Origin: Bifidobacterium gallicum DSM 20093 = LMG 11596 | GTDB taxonomy: Bacteria > Actinomycetota > Actinomycetes > Actinomycetales > Bifidobacteriaceae | Assembly: GCF_000741205.1 (NCBI RefSeq) | Contig: NZ_JGYW01000004.1 | Span: forward strand, 1 to 64,000 | Length of the DNA stretch: 64,000 nt | Reading direction: 5' to 3' | Shown: positions 1,341 to 63,913 of the stretch, piece after piece | How the letters are laid out: each line of letters opens with the position of its first letter | How positions within the stretch are numbered: the first letter of the stretch is position 1 | Notes under the pieces: generated by a model | The model's database searches: none | Told to the model about the DNA's origin: nothing | What the model saw: only the letters and a program-made list of their open reading frames with translations | Made by a program: the position numbers and the translations under genes

Positions 1341-1377
1341 CATACCCGAAACCAACCCCCACACAACCGCCTCCCAC

Positions 1378-2119
1378 CCGACCAGACAGGCCAGGAGGCA
1401 CACGCTTTGCACCCTGTAACCGTAGCTTTCCTGACCAGCATGGCCAGGAGGGATACGCTTTGCACCAAGGAACCGCATATTTCCTGACCAGGCCGGTCAG
1501 CGGGGATGCGCTTTGCACCCTGTAACCGTAGCTTTCCTGACCGGCATGGTCAGCGGGGATACACTTTGCACCCCGGAACCGCGTCTTTACTGACCAGCCT
1601 GGTCAGCGGGGACGCGTTTCGCACGCTGAAACCGCATCTTCCCTGACCAGCCTGGCCAGCGGGGATGCACTTTAAGCCTTTGAACTGCATATTTCCTGAC
1701 CAGCATGGTCAGGAGGGATACGCTTTGAGTCTTGGAAGTGCATCTTTCCTGGCCAGCCTGGCCAGCGGGGACACGCTTTGCACCATGTAACCGCATATTT
1801 CCCGACCAGCCTGGTCAGCGGGGATACGCTTTGTGTGCTGAAACTGTAGCTTTGCTGACCCGGCCGGTCAGCGGGGATGCGTTTTGTGCGTTAGAACTGC
1901 CATTTTCCTGACCAGCCTGGCCAGGGGAGATGCGCTTTGCACCCCGTAACCGTAGCTTTCCTGACCATGCCGGTCAGGAGGGACGCACCTTGACGCCGGT
2001 AACCGCACCTTCCCTGACCCGCCTGGTCAGCGGGGATGCACTTTGAGCACAGAAACCGCACTTTTCCGTACCAGCCTGGTCAGGGGAGACGTGGTTTGGG
2101 ATTGGACGCAGAGTTGGGT
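1378..2119. repeat. 53-bp periodic palindromic repeat, array 1 (14 units)
   Basis: Fourteen consecutive units occur, with the palindrome core starting at 1378, 1431, 1484, 1537, 1590, 1643, 1696, 1749, 1802, 1855, 1908, 1961, 2014 and 2067. Every step is exactly 53 bases although the units have diverged. The core is CTGACCA-N3-TGGTCAG. Outside it, GCAT and ATGC half-sites sit 5 bases away on each side, so the dyad spans about 35 bases. The rest of the unit reads roughly GCGCTTTGCACCCTGTAACC. No credible gene runs through it. It fills the space between the rRNA operon and the next gene. Related arrays lie at 14250 and 63445. Confidence 0.95.
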
Positions 2120-2158
2120 GGTATCGGGCCGGTACGGAAATACTCACGAGCAATACAG

Positions 2159-7809: not shown

Positions 7810-8197
7810 GATACGCCTCTCCTTAAGTGGTTGGGATTGATACAGAGGTGACTTGCGCCTTTGGCCAATATAGCAATGCGTCTGTATGTTTCGGGCCGGA
7901 TTTCTCGCGGGTGAGACGGGGGTGAGACGGGGGTGAGATGTGGATGAGATGGTGGTTGAGACGGGGATGGGATGTGGGTCTGGACGAGGACGAGACAGCG
8001 AGGCGACACGCCCGGAAGGTGAACGACATGCCGTGTTGACGAGTTGAACGGGGCATGAGCGTGATGGTTGACTGAACAGTGGGCGACGGGAGTTCGTGCG
8101 GGGAACTGGTGCCGGTGACGTTCCGGTGACGTTCGGGTGATGTGAGTGACCTGCGCGTGGGTTGGAATCGGTCGGCTTTGGGGCGGCGTGAAGCGGC
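7810..8197. other. Intergenic region between prs and rpsF
   Basis: Apart from the G-rich short tandem repeat at 7911-7978 and the rpsF promoter at 8198-8226, I see no gene here. It should hold the prs promoter on the minus strand, but I could not identify a convincing -35/-10 pair. Confidence 0.6.
7911..7978. repeat. G-rich degenerate tandem repeat
   Basis: About six degenerate copies of GTGAGACGGGG, roughly 11 bases each, start 100 bases upstream of the prs start codon. On the plus strand it carries regularly spaced runs of three to five G, which could form quadruplex or slipped structures. Confidence 0.7.
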
Positions 8198-9902: not shown

Positions 9903-10349
9903 ATGGCTGAAACCAAGCTTATTCTTACCAAGTCCGTCCCGAACCTCGGCAACGAGGGCGACATTGTAACCGTCAAGGCTGGTTACGCTCGCAACTACCT
10001 GATTCCTCAGGGCATGGCATTTGAGTGGACGAAGAAGGCCGCCGCTCAGGCCGAGGCCATGAAGAAGGCCCGCCTGGCTCGCGCTGTGGCGTCCCGTGAG
10101 GATGCCGTGGCTGCCAAGGGTCAGATCGAAGGCGCCGTCGTGGAGATTCCGGCCAAGGTTTCCGAGTCCGGCAAGCTGTTCGGCGGCATCTCGACCGACA
10201 AGATCGCTGCTGCTCTGGCTTCCAAGGCCGCTGTGGATCCGAAGGCCATCACTGTGGCCCCGATCAAGACCACGGGCGAATTCCCGGCAACCGTCGCTCT
10301 GCACCCGGAGATCTCCGCAACGTTCACCGTCAAGGTCGTCGCCGAGTAA
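9903..10349 (+). CDS. rplI: 50S ribosomal protein L9
   Basis: The 148-residue L9 shows the N-terminal domain with [20 protein letters not shown] and [20 protein letters not shown], a long connecting helix, and the C-terminal rRNA-binding domain. GAGGAGTGAACA precedes the ATG. It ends the operon in front of a strong terminator. Confidence 0.97.
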
Positions 10350-14051: not shown

Positions 14052-14128
14052 GCCCCTTTAGCTCAGTTGGTTAGAGCAGCTGACTCTTAATCAGCGTGTC
14101 CAGGGTTCGAATCCCTGAGGGGGCACCA
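14052..14128 (+). tRNA. tRNA-Lys (anticodon CTT)
   Basis: A complete cloverleaf: acceptor GCCCCTT paired with AGGGGGC, D arm GCTC/GAGC, anticodon stem GCTGA/TCAGC with loop CTCTTAA (anticodon CTT), T arm CAGGG-TTCGAAT-CCCTG, discriminator A and an encoded CCA. Confidence 0.97.
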
Positions 14129-14165: not shown

Positions 14166-14249
14166 TCGTATCCGCCCAATGCGCTGTGGCTGTAACGAGG
14201 CTACGGGGATGCGCCTCGACTATGGATTCGGGCATTATTTGTATCTTTG

Positions 14250-14672
14250 CTGACCAGGTTGGTAAACGGAGATGCCGTTTTGCGTCCTGTTTTGTAGTTT
14301 TGCTGACCAGCGTGGTCAGGGGAGATGCGGTTTTTCGCCCCGATATGGAGTTTTGCTGACCAGCGTGGTCAGGAAAGATACCTTTTTACGCCCCGATATG
14401 GAGTTTTGCTGACCAGCGTGGTCAGGAAAGGTGCGGTTTGCTCCTCAATTGGTAGTTTTCCTTACCATGCTGGTCAGGAGAGATGCCGTTTTGTGACCCG
14501 ATATGTAGTTTTCCTGACCGTCCGGGTCAGGGGAGATGCGGTTTCTTGCCCCGATATGGAGTTTTGCTGACCATGCTGGTCAGGGGAGGTGCGGTTTGCT
14601 CCTCAATTTGGAGTTTTTCCTGGCCGGCGTGGTCAGGAAAGATGCATTTTCGCCCGTATGGTCCGCGGACAT
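14250..14672. repeat. 53-bp periodic palindromic repeat, array 2 (8 units)
   Basis: Cores start at 14250, 14303, 14356, 14409, 14461, 14514, 14567 and 14620; all steps are 53 except one of 52. Three adjacent units have the identical core CTGACCAGCGTGGTCAG. The intervening sequence, approximately GGGGAGATGCGGTTT then CCCGATATGGAGTTTTG, differs from array 1 but keeps the ATGC arm. It follows tRNA-Lys and precedes a gene remnant; no gene lies within it. Confidence 0.93.
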
Positions 14673-14685
14673 TGGCGAAGGCGCG

Positions 14686-15168
14686 TCAGGGGCTTATGGC
14701 ATGCAGACGCATCGCGAGCGCCACGATGTTGATCACCTCGTATGATTCGGCGGCGAGCAGCATCGCGCCAAGGCTTTCATGTGTGTCGGCGTTGAACAGC
14801 ACACGCACGCCCTGCGCAGTCAAATCATCCAGGACTGCCTGTGCAATGTCGTCGTCTTCACGCTCGAGCAGCCGTGAAGAATGCTGCAGCACGGTGACCT
14901 GGCTGCCGAAATCGGCGAACATCGACGCGAACTCGAGCCCGATATAACCGCCGCCAATGATCACGAGACGCTGGGGCAGCTCCTCAAGTTCCATGATGCG
15001 CGTGCTCGTGTAGACACCCGGCGTTTCTGTAAGGCCGGCAATGGGCGGCAGCATAGCCTGCGCTCCCGTATTGATGAAGATTCGATCGCCTGTCAGCGTG
15101 AGTGTTTCGCGCTCGCCGTGACCCTCGCGCTCGCCCGTAACCTCGGCCGAAAGAACTCCGTCCGCCAT
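14686..15168 (-). pseudogene. Remnant of a pyridine nucleotide-disulfide oxidoreductase
   Basis: The 160-residue frame contains the NAD-binding core (RLVIIGGGYIGLEFASMF, VTVLQHSSRLLEREDDDIA) and the preceding FAD-domain segment FINTGAQAMLPPIAGLTETP. It then jumps from GVRVLFNADT directly to HESLGAMLLAAESYEVINIV, a segment from the dimerisation domain at the C-terminus of such enzymes. The N-terminal FAD-binding part with the redox disulfide, most of the middle, and the last residues are missing. It is therefore a gene with a 5' truncation and an internal deletion. Such enzymes normally have about 450 residues. Confidence 0.8.
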
Positions 15169-37415: not shown

Positions 37416-38477
37416 CTATTGCTGCGGCGTGAAGCGGAACAGCCGCACGGTCAGCGAGCACAGCGCAACGGCCACGCACGGGGCGATCATCGCGATGCTG
37501 GCCAGCATAGGGTTGAACATCCAGCCAAGCCACGGATACAACACGCCGGCGGCTATCGGAATCGCCACAATGTTGAACATGAGCACGAGCGCGATGTTGA
37601 CGCGCACAGTGATGCGCACGCGATGGGTCAGGCGTTCGAGGTCACAAGTGGGCTGGGCAGAAGCGGGCTGGCTGGAAGTGGGCTGGCTGGAATCAGGGTG
37701 GCTGGGAAGCTCAGGCTGCATGCCATGACGTTGCATCATGCCCAGCGCAATGCTGACGGGCAGCGGGCACGCCCATGCGAGCGCGCACGGGCATGATACG
37801 GCGAGCACGCTGATGGCTGTGACGAGCGCGCGCACCAACGCGGGCTGTGGGCCGAACACTTCCCAGACCACGAACGTCCACATTGCAATGAGCAGCACAA
37901 TCGGCACGAGCACGCGCGAAATACGGTTTACTGTGCGCTGTAGTTGGGGCGTGCCCTTGGCAGGTAGCCATGCGCGCTCCATCAGCACGGCGCTCAACAC
38001 GAGTGTGATTGTGACGCCGACGAATTCAAAATACGTGGATTGCAATGGTTCGGGCAGTTGGTCGCCTACGCAGCAGACAATCAGGCTATAAGCGTAGGCA
38101 GCAATCGTGCACAGCGATACGAGCGATTGCAGATTCGGGCGGCGCTGGATCAGCGCTTGCCATCCATTGATATGAATCGCGTAGGCGCTGTAAAACATCA
38201 CGGGTGTGATCAGCAATGCGCGCAACCATTCGTCGGCCAGCCAACCTGGCAGATGGGTTATGAACAGATGTAATCCCGAGACGGCGAGCGTGACCAAGGT
38301 CAACGCGGCGGCGACAATTGTGCGACGAATCAGTGTGTCGGTAGGTGAACTCGAAGTGCCCATATGCTGGTCCGTAAGGGCGCCGGCAGTGTGGGACGCC
38401 ATGGAACGCACAGTGCCGATCGACGTGATAACGGCAAGCAGCATCAGCACTGCTGAGGCAAACAGGTTCAGCGTCAT
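37416..38477 (-). CDS. P1B-type ATPase reduced to its membrane domain (no A, P or N domain)
   Basis: 353 residues, predicted 8-9 membrane helices. It aligns by eye with CopA-type copper ATPases over the membrane part: FYSAYAIHINGWQALIQRR and NLQSLVSLCTIAAYAYSLI (helices 2-3), STYFEFVGVTITLVLSAVLM (helix 4), RTVNRISRVLVPIVLLIAMW (helix 5), VSCPCALAWACPLPVSIALG with the CPC metal site (Cys229, Cys231), then NIALVLMFNIVAIPIAAG and PMLASIAMIAPCVAVAL (helices 7-8). The actuator domain between helices 4 and 5 is cut to about ten residues (RAWLPAKGTP). The phosphorylation and nucleotide domains, including DKTGT and GDGxND, are replaced by a repetitive Ser/Gln/Pro linker. The reading frame is uninterrupted and GGGAGA precedes the ATG. 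Without the catalytic domains it cannot pump by the P-type cycle; it might bind or passively conduct copper, or be decaying. Confidence 0.8.
   Translation of the reverse strand: MTLNLFASAVLMLLAVITSIGTVRSMASHTAGALTDQHMGTSSSPTDTLIRRTIVAAALTLVTLAVSGLHLFITHLPGWLADEWLRALLITPVMFYSAYAIHINGWQALIQRRPNLQSLVSLCTIAAYAYSLIVCCVGDQLPEPLQSTYFEFVGVTITLVLSAVLMERAWLPAKGTPQLQRTVNRISRVLVPIVLLIAMWTFVVWEVFGPQPALVRALVTAISVLAVSCPCALAWACPLPVSIALGMMQRHGMQPELPSHPDSSQPTSSQPASAQPTCDLERLTHRVRITVRVNIALVLMFNIVAIPIAAGVLYPWLGWMFNPMLASIAMIAPCVAVALCSLTVRLFRFTPQQ
37646..37705. repeat. 15-bp tandem repeat (4 copies) inside the reduced ATPase gene
   Basis: AAGTGGGCTGGGCAG, AAGCGGGCTGGCTGG, AAGTGGGCTGGCTGG and AATCAGGGTGGCTGG follow head to tail. 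Read on the minus strand they encode pentapeptides HPDSS-QPTSS-QPASA-QPT, which form the linker replacing the catalytic domains. Being a multiple of three, copy changes keep the frame. Confidence 0.88.
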
Positions 38478-51126: not shown

Positions 51127-53283
51127 GTGGCAACCAGCCAAAATCTGAATGACATGAAACTGCCTGAGCTCAAGGAGCTCGCTAAGCAAATGGGCCTGAA
51201 AGGCACATCGACGCTGCGCAAGGACAAGCTCATTGAAGTACTTCAGGCGGCCCGCTCCGGAGCGGCTGTGCCGGAGGGTGTGTCCATTTCCGTAGGCAAC
51301 CATGCAGTTTCAGCTGGTTCCCGCAAGACTGAGGCCACGACCAACACGACTGAGGGCGCCAACACCCAAGCTGCCCAGACTGCACAATCCGCTCCATCCG
51401 AGCCGGACGCTCAAGCCGCTGAGGCGAGTGAACCAGCCGAGCCGCGTGTGCCGCGCCGCGCTCGCCGAGCGACCACTGATGAGAATGGTGAGCCGTTGGA
51501 GTTGGCCGGTCTGGTCGACCACAACGAACATACGGTGCTGTCGCGCCGTGTACGCGGCAAGCGCCGCGCCGCCGAGCGTGAAGCCATGATTGAGGAAGTG
51601 GCCAGCGAAGCCGCACAAGACGCGTTGGGTGTGCTGGATGCGTTGAGTGGCGAACGTGACGCCCATGCTGAAGGCCGCAGTGACAATCGTCTGGGTGTGC
51701 AGCGCCGTCGCCGCGCGATGGCAGTGCAGCGTGGCCATGATCGTGACCGTGATCGTGCCGAACGTCGATCCCAAGATCAGGAATCGAACACTGAAGAGGA
51801 ATTGGACGACATTTTGGCGGCGCTGCCTGCACGCGAGGGCGAAGCCGAACGCTCCAATAGTGAATCCACGAATCGTCGTGGCCGCAACGCCTACCACAAT
51901 GATGAGCGCGGGCGTGGCGACGACCGTAATGAGCGCAACAATCGCAATGATCGCGACGAGCGCAAGGACCGCCGTCGTGGCCGCAATCGCAATGATGATT
52001 GTGATCGTGACGAGCGCAACGAGCGCAACGATCGCGCTGATCGCAACGACCGCATGAACCGTCGTGGCCAGCGTGATGACGCCAACGACCGCAACAACCG
52101 TCGCAACAACCGCCCTGAGCGTGCCGAACGTGACGAGCGCGTCGATGAAGTGGTGCCCGTGGCTGGCATTGTGGATGTGCTTGACTCCTATGCGTTCATC
52201 CGCACGTCGGGATATCTGCCTGGCCCCAATGACGTCTACGTGTCGATGGGACAAATCAAAAAGTACGGTCTGCGCAAGGGCGATGCCGTGCAGGGCACGA
52301 TCAAGGCTCCGCATGAGGGTGAACACCGCAATGCGCGCCAGAAGTTCGTGCCGTTGCAGGCCATTGTGTCGATCAATGGCATGAGCGTGGAGGAAGCGGG
52401 CCGCCGTCCCGAGTTCTCAAAGCTCACACCGTTGTATCCCAATGAGCGCCTCGTGCAAGAGACCGACGCCAAGCATTTGACGGGTCGTCTGATCGACATC
52501 ATCGCACCAATCGGCAAGGGCCAGCGTGGCCTAATCGTGTCGCCACCCAAGGCCGGCAAGACGATCACGTTGCAAAACATCGCCAATTCGATTGCGCAAA
52601 ACAATCCTGAAGTGCATTTGATGGTCGTGCTCGTGGACGAACGCCCTGAAGAAGTCACCGATATGGAACGCACCGTGCAAGGCGAAGTCATTTCGTCAAC
52701 GTTCGACCGTCCGGCGTCCGACCATACGATTGTGGCCGAGTTGGCGATTGAACGCGCCAAGCGTCTTGTGGAGCTCGGCCAGGATGTGGTCGTGCTGCTC
52801 GATTCGATGACGCGTCTGGCACGCGCCTACAACATCGCGGCCCCGGCCTCGGGCCGTATCCTGTCGGGTGGTGTGGATGCGCAGGCGCTGTATCCGCCGA
52901 AGAAGTTCTTTGGTGCGGCACGCAACATTGAAAACGGCGGTTCGTTGACGATCATCTCGTCGGCGCTCGTGGAAACCGGTTCGAAGATGGATGAAGTCAT
53001 CTTCGAAGAGTTCAAGGGCACGGGCAACATGGAGTTGCGTCTGAGCCGTGAACTGGCCGACAAGCGTCTGTTCCCAGCCATCGACATCAACGCTTCGGGC
53101 ACGCGTCGCGAAGAGCTGATCACGGCTCCCAAGGAGCTGCCGCTCAACTACGGTTTGCGCCGTCTGCTTGGCGGTCTTGAACCTGAGCAGGCATACCAGA
53201 CGCTCGTGCCGCGCTTGCGCAAGACGGCCACGAACCGTGACTTCTACGCCTCGATGGTGCAAAACAGCGCGAACAACAACTAA
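51127..53283 (+). CDS. rho: Transcription termination factor Rho
   Basis: 718 residues, much longer than the 420 of E. coli Rho. The N-terminal Rho_N helices (NLNDMKLPELKELAKQMGLK) are followed by a long insertion (about 60-340). It is first Ala/Glu-rich and then a repetitive Asn/Asp/Arg/Glu tract such as NERNNRNDRDERKDRRRGR. Then come the RNA-binding OB fold (GIVDVLDSYAFIRTSGYL) and the ATPase core: SPPKAGKTITLQNI, LVDERPEEVTDMER, and VVLLDSMTRLARAYN. The GTG at 51127 follows AAAGG by 7 bases. Insertions of this type are common in high-GC Gram-positive Rho and increase RNA binding. Confidence 0.96.
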   Translation: MATSQNLNDMKLPELKELAKQMGLKGTSTLRKDKLIEVLQAARSGAAVPEGVSISVGNHAVSAGSRKTEATTNTTEGANTQAAQTAQSAPSEPDAQAAEASEPAEPRVPRRARRATTDENGEPLELAGLVDHNEHTVLSRRVRGKRRAAEREAMIEEVASEAAQDALGVLDALSGERDAHAEGRSDNRLGVQRRRRAMAVQRGHDRDRDRAERRSQDQESNTEEELDDILAALPAREGEAERSNSESTNRRGRNAYHNDERGRGDDRNERNNRNDRDERKDRRRGRNRNDDCDRDERNERNDRADRNDRMNRRGQRDDANDRNNRRNNRPERAERDERVDEVVPVAGIVDVLDSYAFIRTSGYLPGPNDVYVSMGQIKKYGLRKGDAVQGTIKAPHEGEHRNARQKFVPLQAIVSINGMSVEEAGRRPEFSKLTPLYPNERLVQETDAKHLTGRLIDIIAPIGKGQRGLIVSPPKAGKTITLQNIANSIAQNNPEVHLMVVLVDERPEEVTDMERTVQGEVISSTFDRPASDHTIVAELAIERAKRLVELGQDVVVLLDSMTRLARAYNIAAPASGRILSGGVDAQALYPPKKFFGAARNIENGGSLTIISSALVETGSKMDEVIFEEFKGTGNMELRLSRELADKRLFPAIDINASGTRREELITAPKELPLNYGLRRLLGGLEPEQAYQTLVPRLRKTATNRDFYASMVQNSANNN

Positions 53284-61457: not shown

Positions 61458-61640
61458 GACAATGCCTTTCCCCTATGGGCGTGTCTGGTACACATCGTGA
61501 ACATGGATATCCCGAACCCTAGAGGTGAAATTCGTCAGTTAGCTTCCAACGGTGTGACGAGTGCGTTTCCGAACTGCTACAGCTACCACCCCTGGCGAAA
61601 CACAGGGCGGTTAGGTTGGCAAACGAGTCCGCTTGCCACG

Positions 61641-61680
61641 AGTCTTGACAGGTCTTGACGTGTCTTGACGTGTCTTGACG
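61641..61680. repeat. Four tandem 10-bp repeats in a divergent promoter region
   Basis: AGTCTTGACA, GGTCTTGACG, TGTCTTGACG, TGTCTTGACG follow without gaps, repeating TCTTGAC once per helical turn. They lie between the DUF1445 operon and the aminotransferase gene (272 bases, otherwise featureless). No -10 box is 16-18 bases from any TTGAC, so they are more likely a cooperative regulator site than promoters. Confidence 0.8.
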
Positions 61681-63406: not shown

Positions 63407-63444
63407 GCCATTGATGCCGAATTCTTGCCCAAACTGTAGTTTTC

Positions 63445-63866
63445 CTGACCAGGCTGGTAAGCGGAGCTACGTTTTTGAGCCTGAAACTGCGTCTTTCCTG
63501 ACCAAGCTGGTCAGGGGAGAGACATTTCCTTCCCCCAGATCGCATTTTTCCTGACCGGGCTGGTCAGGTGGTTTACGTTTCTTCCCTAAACTGCGTCTTT
63601 CCTGACCAGGCTGGTAAGAAAAACTGCGCTTTCTAGTTCGAAACTGCATCTTTCCTGACCAGCTTGGTCAAGGGATTGACGTTTTCTCCCTCCAAACTGC
63701 ATCTTTCCGTACCAGGCTGGTCAAGGGATTGACGTTTCCTTCCTCCAAACTGCATCTTTCCGTACCAGGCTGGTCAAGGGATTGGCGTTTCCTTCCTCCA
63801 AACTGCGTCTTCCCGTACCGGGCTGGTCAGGAAAGATGCAGTTTGGGCGTTGGAATGGAGCGCGGT
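63445..63866. repeat. 53-bp periodic palindromic repeat, array 3 (8 units)
   Basis: Cores start at 63445, 63498, 63551, 63602, 63655, 63708, 63761 and 63814; all steps are 53 except one of 51. Units at 63655, 63708, 63761 and 63814 are nearly identical, with GGGATTGACGTTTCCTTCCT between cores and AAACTGCATCTTTC before each. The last unit continues into GGTCAGGAAAGATGCAGTTT, the reverse complement of its own left flank, making a hairpin of about 20 bp per arm. Confidence 0.93.
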
Positions 63867-63913
63867 TGTGCCGCGGGGGTCAGCGCACAATACGGATTGA
63901 GCTTGTGCTGCTG

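Follow-up and report, generated by a model that had tools for sequence, protein, structure and literature searches.

Palindromes dispersed in bacterial genomes are usually read as hairpins or as transposon debris. In plasmid partition, each repeat of sopC contains an inverted repeat that is bound by SopB. The mycobacterial MIRU-VNTR loci are intergenic tandem repeats of the Actinomycetota, many with units of about 53 bp, a figure for which our literature search gave no confirmation, and to our knowledge these repeats have not been described as phased dyads. The sopC centromere of the F plasmid is a SopB/ParB binding array of twelve 43-bp repeats (PMC9178275). The REP sequences, according to PMC3733652, are high-copy extragenic palindromes, sometimes clustered, with a GTAG or CGTC tag and short stem-loops; they form mainly head-head or tail-tail dimers, the head-tail arrangement being rare, and are linked to RAYTs. 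Lastly, according to PMC12217951, Tn3-type res sites are built from dyad subsites bound by dimers, with centres generally five turns apart (51 bp in SGI1), a distance at which the dimers can contact each other and phase matters.

The window, i.e., the whole 64-kb stretch of DNA analyzed here, corresponds to G000:C4:1-64000 of a genome of 2.0 Mb in 12 contigs, and starts with the end of a 23S rRNA gene, followed by the 5S gene. When up to three mismatches were allowed, the palindrome CTGACCA-N3-TGGTCAG matched 33 times in the window, against 2.86 expected from 100 dinucleotide shuffles (standard deviation 1.74, largest value 9), and 30 of these matches fell inside three arrays of 14, 8 and 8 cores, designated type A (Table 1); TRF recovered the same three arrays. 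A preliminary description of this DNA had reported an exact 53-base step, 13 times in a row, in the first array, and steps of 53 with one 52 and one 51 in the other two, and the step lists bear out both statements. The first array begins past the 5S rRNA gene (1186-1302) and past the terminator-like hairpin of that gene, and the second is flanked by tRNA-Lys (14052-14128) and an oxidoreductase-like frame. Both arrays 1 and 3 are continued by a degenerate dyad of another type, in each case 53 bp beyond the last type A centre: the GTATCGGGCCGGTAC core after array 1 (last centre 2075) and a type B unit after array 3. A scan of the window at the Rfam gathering thresholds returned rRNA and tRNA only. 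Besides the arrays, TRF listed other short tandem repeats at 7909-7977, 37646-37710, 51917-52054 and 61638-61680, their periods ranging from 10 to 34 bp. The 160-amino acid frame beside array 2 (14686-15168, minus strand) matches pyridine nucleotide-disulphide oxidoreductases over about 110 residues and looks shortened, since its best relatives sit in open frames of about 450-575 amino acids.

Table 1. Dyad arrays and adjoining degenerate dyads in the window (window coordinates).
Feature	Extent	Cores or centre	Strand	Steps or means of detection
Type A array 1	1363..2098	14 cores, 1378-2083	.	thirteen steps, each exactly 53 bp
Degenerate core of other type, GTATCGGGCCGGTAC	2121..2135	centre 2128	.	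by eye; matrix scan without a call
Type A array 2	14235..14651	8 cores, 14250-14636	.	53,53,53,52,53,53,53
Type A array 3	63430..63845	8 cores, 63445-63830	.	53,53,51,53,53,53,53
Degenerate type B unit after array 3	63852..63898	centre 63875	.	weight matrix scan

The three arrays and 30 units of the preliminary description are therefore present as claimed, but they make up a small share of the set. The genome holds 169 cores with at most one mismatch, and none was found with the same pattern read backward as a control. A symmetric weight matrix, applied to a non-random sample of 476,719 bases (the whole of contig C1, the window, stretches picked for holding matches, and a few others), recovered 28 type A arrays comprising 222 units, with 3-22 units each. 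In this sample no isolated type A unit scored above the threshold, all 28 groups contained at least three units, and one shuffle of C1 yielded no arrays. Nine arrays occurred on C1, which was taken whole (232 kb), while contig C2 (328 kb), searched by exact cores, had one array against about 7.8 expected from the pooled density of C1-C3, so that the arrays are unevenly distributed. In our home-made gene calls, no gene was overlapped by any of the 28 arrays. With 3 of 10 candidates scored, two rRNA copies were listed in this genome, and each is followed by an array; a tRNA gene neighbours three arrays, in a sample that contains 12 tRNA genes. Convergent gene pairs were found in 9 of 25 cases against 28 of 162 (p = 0.054), and a preference of the arrays for such pairs was dropped since the excess was not significant. 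The flanking genes, among those listed, appear to be mainly housekeeping; ten were scanned with Pfam and nine matched, including NusG, L11, L17, glutamine synthetase and RecG. The longest array (L019, 2741-4215; G000:C3:20241-21714) has 22 detected units and three gaps of 156-157 bp, the fillers of which resemble one another and thus form a higher-order repeat. The two strands of an array also tend to differ in composition, one being G/T-rich and the other A/C-rich, with 14 of the 28 arrays in each orientation.

The type A unit is an imperfect palindrome of about 45 bp, joined to the next by linkers of about 8 bp, and its consensus, CCCGAAACTGCATCTTTCCTGACCAGGCTGGTCAGGAAAGATGCAGTTTCGGG, carries 51.6 bits across 53 columns in the 186 units first collected. 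Mean identity between units was 71% inside loci and 60% between loci, and neighbouring units averaged 75% over 47 bp. Conservation within the unit was uneven, reaching 98-99% at core positions against about 50% elsewhere, and was strongest at the core together with the outer positions 17, 20 and 21. It is to be noted that conservation in type A is a mixture of descent and constraint. The preliminary description had stated that the sequence between the cores diverged strongly while the spacing did not; the second half of this statement holds, but the first is not a matter of simple divergence, since positions out to about ±22 make up a second conserved arm pair beside the core. When all arrays were set in one orientation, the base preferences of the two half-sites agreed over positions 2-22 (r = 0.90), minor bases included; at position 6, for example, C and A had frequencies of 0.80 and 0.18 in one half and 0.75 and 0.23 in the other, while the halves differed in A/G at positions 10, 11, 13 and 18. 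This agreement is partly due to the palindrome itself, and that of the minor bases is the telling part. The earlier suggestion that a dimeric protein binds the dyad is consistent with such matched preferences, as would be expected of two-fold symmetric recognition.

A palindromic unit could also act as RNA, as a hairpin at transcript 3' ends that serves in stability or termination, and the location of arrays after two rRNA copies and beside three tRNA genes would suit such a role. Hairpin arms should, however, covary. In type A, the arms paired in 52.3% of cells against 51.3% when permuted within arrays, a value reached in 12 of 2000 permutations and a slight excess that speaks against a pure protein site, and in type B they paired in 52.0% against 51.0% (p = 0.28), i.e., with no excess. 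A hairpin should pair far better than this, and the near-absence of arm covariation, taken with the equal half-sites, instead points to a symmetric protein site. Moreover, array 1 starts past the 5S gene and its terminator-like hairpin, and the convergent-gene excess was not significant. Hairpin RNA was set aside on account of the lack of covariation, and we regard it as highly improbable. Curvature by phased A-tracts was also rejected, since the leading harmonic of A+T along the tile is not that of 10.6 bp.

The spacing of the units was better kept than their sequence, as had been proposed: out of 183 single steps between type A units, 157 were exactly 53 bp, against the 75% identity of neighbours, and the remainder were 52 (11 steps), 54 (11), 51 (three) and 56 (one). 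Larger steps of 103-105 bp (seven) and 156-157 bp (four) maintained the register across decayed or foreign units; in one such gap, beginning at C1:29172, a type A unit is followed by a type B unit at exactly 53 bp. Being multiples of the unit, these larger steps do not constitute independent evidence of helical phase.

The second family, type B, has the core GTACCACSGTGGTAC and was represented by 34 units in the sample. A genome-wide search for close type B pairs found 40 in this genome and, among the 112 genomes searched, a single further one, in G063. There were seven groups of at least two units, five of which were complete elements of five dyads; one other had four units, and the last had two and continued into type A units. 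Two lone type B units are internal or terminal to type A arrays, and neighbours of unlike type, in either order, are 52 or 53 bp apart and hence in register. The five-dyad elements had spacings of 52-53-53-52 (three elements), 62-53-53-62 (one) and 63-53-53-63 (one). Thus, the spacings were mirror-symmetric in all five, with outer spacers that vary by about one turn and yet are equal at both ends, the one-turn alternative of 62/63 bp being based on three groups. Matching outer spacers fit a symmetric complex, although there are only five such elements.

Such geometry invites comparison with resolvase sites, in which the dyads would be subsites for a serine recombinase, or for an accessory protein, that brings arrays together in a synaptic complex. 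Sites I and II of res share the geometry, their centres being generally five turns apart, with 4 to 7 allowed and phase important (PMC12217951), and the arrays resemble them in the in-phase spacing of their dyad centres, about five turns; the symmetric type B elements with their one-turn variants add to the likeness. On the other hand, res consists of three unequal subsites beside a resolvase gene, whereas the arrays here have 3-22 similar units, with up to 22 detected consecutively and dozens of places occupied. No recombinase was found among the listed flanking genes or the ten scanned with Pfam. A recombinase site is an improbable reading of the arrays, and membership is not claimed; what the Tn3-type sites establish is that a five-turn geometry of dimers exists in nature (PMC12217951).

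A mobile origin needs more weight, above all for the five-dyad element. By this account, the palindromes are selfish and REP-like: units and arrays would have been spread by a transposase or recombinase with the dyads as its recognition sites and would survive where intergenic DNA tolerates them, and the constant step would come from the enzyme or its intermediate and not from a host function. In multiple alignment, type B does look like a discrete, block-copied element, present in both orientations and with unrelated flanks, there being little similarity past one arm beyond the outer dyads, while some pairwise local alignments extend up to about 90 bp further. The families are also restricted to one or two genomes, and this genome, the only such one of 19 examined, has three Y1 transposase genes, with none in the 12 other congeners examined. 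The three Y1 loci (L063-L065; G000:C5:408573, C3:31835 and C3:138907), with neighbouring TnpB-like frames, are presumably of the IS200/IS605 type, as recognised by eye from those frames, and they contain no array unit; a link to RAYT, the REP-associated Y1 transposase, was rejected on this ground. In addition, lone type A units were absent from the 476,719 bases, and mobility alone leaves a step of 52-53 bp in unrelated families unexplained. The likeness to the REP/BIME of E. coli, Pseudomonas and others, as presented in PMC3733652, consists in high-copy extragenic palindromes that cluster; the tag, stem-loops, dimer layout and RAYT link of that description were not seen here, where the step is near constant. 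In particular, neither the unit consensus nor its column frequencies contained a conserved GTAG or CGTC tetranucleotide at the palindrome end, and a stem-loop upheld by base pairing was not found (52.3% against 51.3% permuted). Taken as the whole explanation, REP-like mobility seems to us unlikely, but it may coexist with function.

Sequence searches of other genomes returned little of type A itself. The exact core pair occurred in one of 112 genomes of the genus, namely this one, and so did matches to the unit model under strict filters, with at most 52 candidates scored in each genome. A laxer pair, ACCA-N3-TGGT twice, was found in two of the 112, with 115 occurrences here, against two for the pattern read backward, and a single occurrence in G063. 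In a collection of bacterial and archaeal genomes, this genome excluded, the core pair matched four single stretches in unrelated organisms, two of which were weak matches to the unit model and two none. A phage or plasmid origin was rejected in that neither the type A nor the type B pair pattern matched any viral contig and array 1 had no match in plasmid or phage collections. The preliminary description had allowed that recent identical copies in this genome alone would argue against selected phasing; half of this holds, the exact pair being confined to one genome of 112, but the copies are not recent identical ones. At the rRNA site of relatives, none of 29 loci had a 40-70 bp tandem array of at least 2.3 copies, a weak negative, since many loci end before the site or run the opposite way. 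Literature on repeats in Bifidobacterium, as judged from listings, held none recognisable as these arrays, and the string 'Bifidobacteri' does not occur in the main texts of PMC12306157 and PMC3733652.

The spacing, in contrast to the sequence, recurred. A TRF survey of 1.18 Mb from 12 congeners (80-260 kb each; period 25-120, at least two copies) gave 36 repeats, of which 12 had periods of 51-54, none 55-61, and three 62-63; six of the 12 congener samples contained a repeat of 51-54 or 62-63 bp, and it was absent from the other six. In 400 kb of five outgroup genomes there were nine tandem repeats, including a single one with a period of 54. By a crude test of stop-to-stop frames, only three of the 12 congener 51-54 bp repeats lay outside a long frame; this test has little discriminating power in GC-rich DNA, since it also placed in frames four of six such repeats of C1, and some congener repeats may be coding. 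By eye and dyad count, dyads were visible in L212 (G022), L222 (G015), and L189, L194, L195 and L186 (G063), and barely visible in the 62-bp repeat L232 (G084), while the count detected none in L213, L218, L220, L223 and L230. The strongest evidence from outside this genome is the TGCGACAACACG family, in which all 13 pairs (eleven in G063, two in G064) were exactly 52 bp apart under a pattern permitting 37-67. The pairs, a few of which are overlapping matches on the two strands, amount to eight loci; two loci (C1:22308 and C38:24068) had prompted the pattern, and the six new ones, in two genomes, all had 52. Two other patterns gave pairs at the locus that had prompted each, namely two of 52 for that of G015, and 52, 51, 51 and 51 for that of G022. 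In L186 of G063 (10097-10327), the GTACC-type array is directly followed by further tandem repeats with periods of 63 and 35. In the outgroup G112, two tandem repeats, L244 (10627-10775, 54 bp) and L248 (11965-12071, 37 bp), both contain GTGATCATGCAATCCCGCCACCC, which may be a dispersed repeat of its own in that other genus.

The same survey bears on a neutral account, in which the arrays are minisatellites, duplication or slippage favouring units of about 52-53 bp and the palindromes merely promoting it. Tandem repeats of 51-54 bp do occur in several congeners with differing sequences, some with no visible dyad, and the mycobacterial MIRU-type repeats, set beside the arrays by description only, are likewise intergenic and often of about 53 bp. 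A neutral process, however, sits poorly with conservation that is very uneven within the unit and mirror-symmetric, with length changes that are rare relative to substitutions, and with the many separate places occupied by the arrays of one family; we consider it distinctly unlikely.

Two further classes of array were compared. The resemblance to sopC (PMC9178275) is that of a tandem short-repeat array serving as a protein docking site, and the type A arrays do consist of tandem short repeats that each have a dyad; sopC, however, has a 43-bp step at one plasmid site, as against about 53 bp at dozens of chromosomal places, in several families. A ParB-type search of the genome returned a single ParB_N frame, matched in two pieces at C1:182 kb, and no second ParB. 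With no dedicated ParB beyond the chromosomal one, membership among the partition arrays is unsupported and not claimed, and the partition role raised in the preliminary description thus came out negative on the sole lead tested. A CRISPR array was rejected, since near-identical repeats with unique spacers were not found, neighbours having 75% identity and linkers of about 8 bp, and there was no Rfam match beyond rRNA and tRNA in the window.

Our preferred reading, to which we give slightly less than an even chance, is that the arrays serve as intergenic docking strips for a putative dimeric, sequence-specific DNA-binding protein with sites five helical turns apart. A nearly constant step over families, symmetric half-sites that hardly covary, type A groups of at least three units and the one-turn alternative of type B together point to protein dimers lined up along the same side of the helix. 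Each unit of about 45 bp would be a two-fold symmetric site for one dimer, and successive sites would lie five turns apart (about 53 bp), or, in type B, also about six (62-63 bp); three or more dimers on the same face could then touch or bridge one another, giving a nucleoprotein strip. The site sequence and the partner protein may vary by species while the five-turn ruler stays constant. Dyad units with equal half-site preferences, set at a near-constant step outside predicted genes and, in type A, clustered by at least three, were observed directly, and so were different sequence families of nearly equal step; protein binding, cooperation of neighbours, and a role in the folding or topology of the chromosome or in recombination are what we infer. 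The earlier view of a phased binding surface as opposed to simple copying is partly supported: both here and among some of the congeners, dyad families of different sequence have steps of 51-53 bp, for which copying of one unit is no explanation. The nucleoid-structuring, partition or topological role named with it did not find support. Two observations weigh against the docking-strip reading, namely that type A is found in its own genome only and that half of the congener samples had no repeat of 51-54 or 62-63 bp.

A broader form of the docking-strip reading is possible but doubtful, namely that such arrays are chromosomal and genus-wide, the conserved trait being the five-turn ruler and not the sequence, with a fast-changing dimeric protein that co-evolves with its dyads and strips that organise intergenic DNA. 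The steady quantity here is helical spacing, across families, and where it changes, in type B, the two ends alike differ by roughly one full turn. If a half-turn phase shift abolished assembly, the arrays would represent a phased binding system that spans the chromosome and was discovered from sequence alone, and fast-evolving docking arrays would, if the reading is true, be a bacterial counterpart of fast-evolving satellite arrays.
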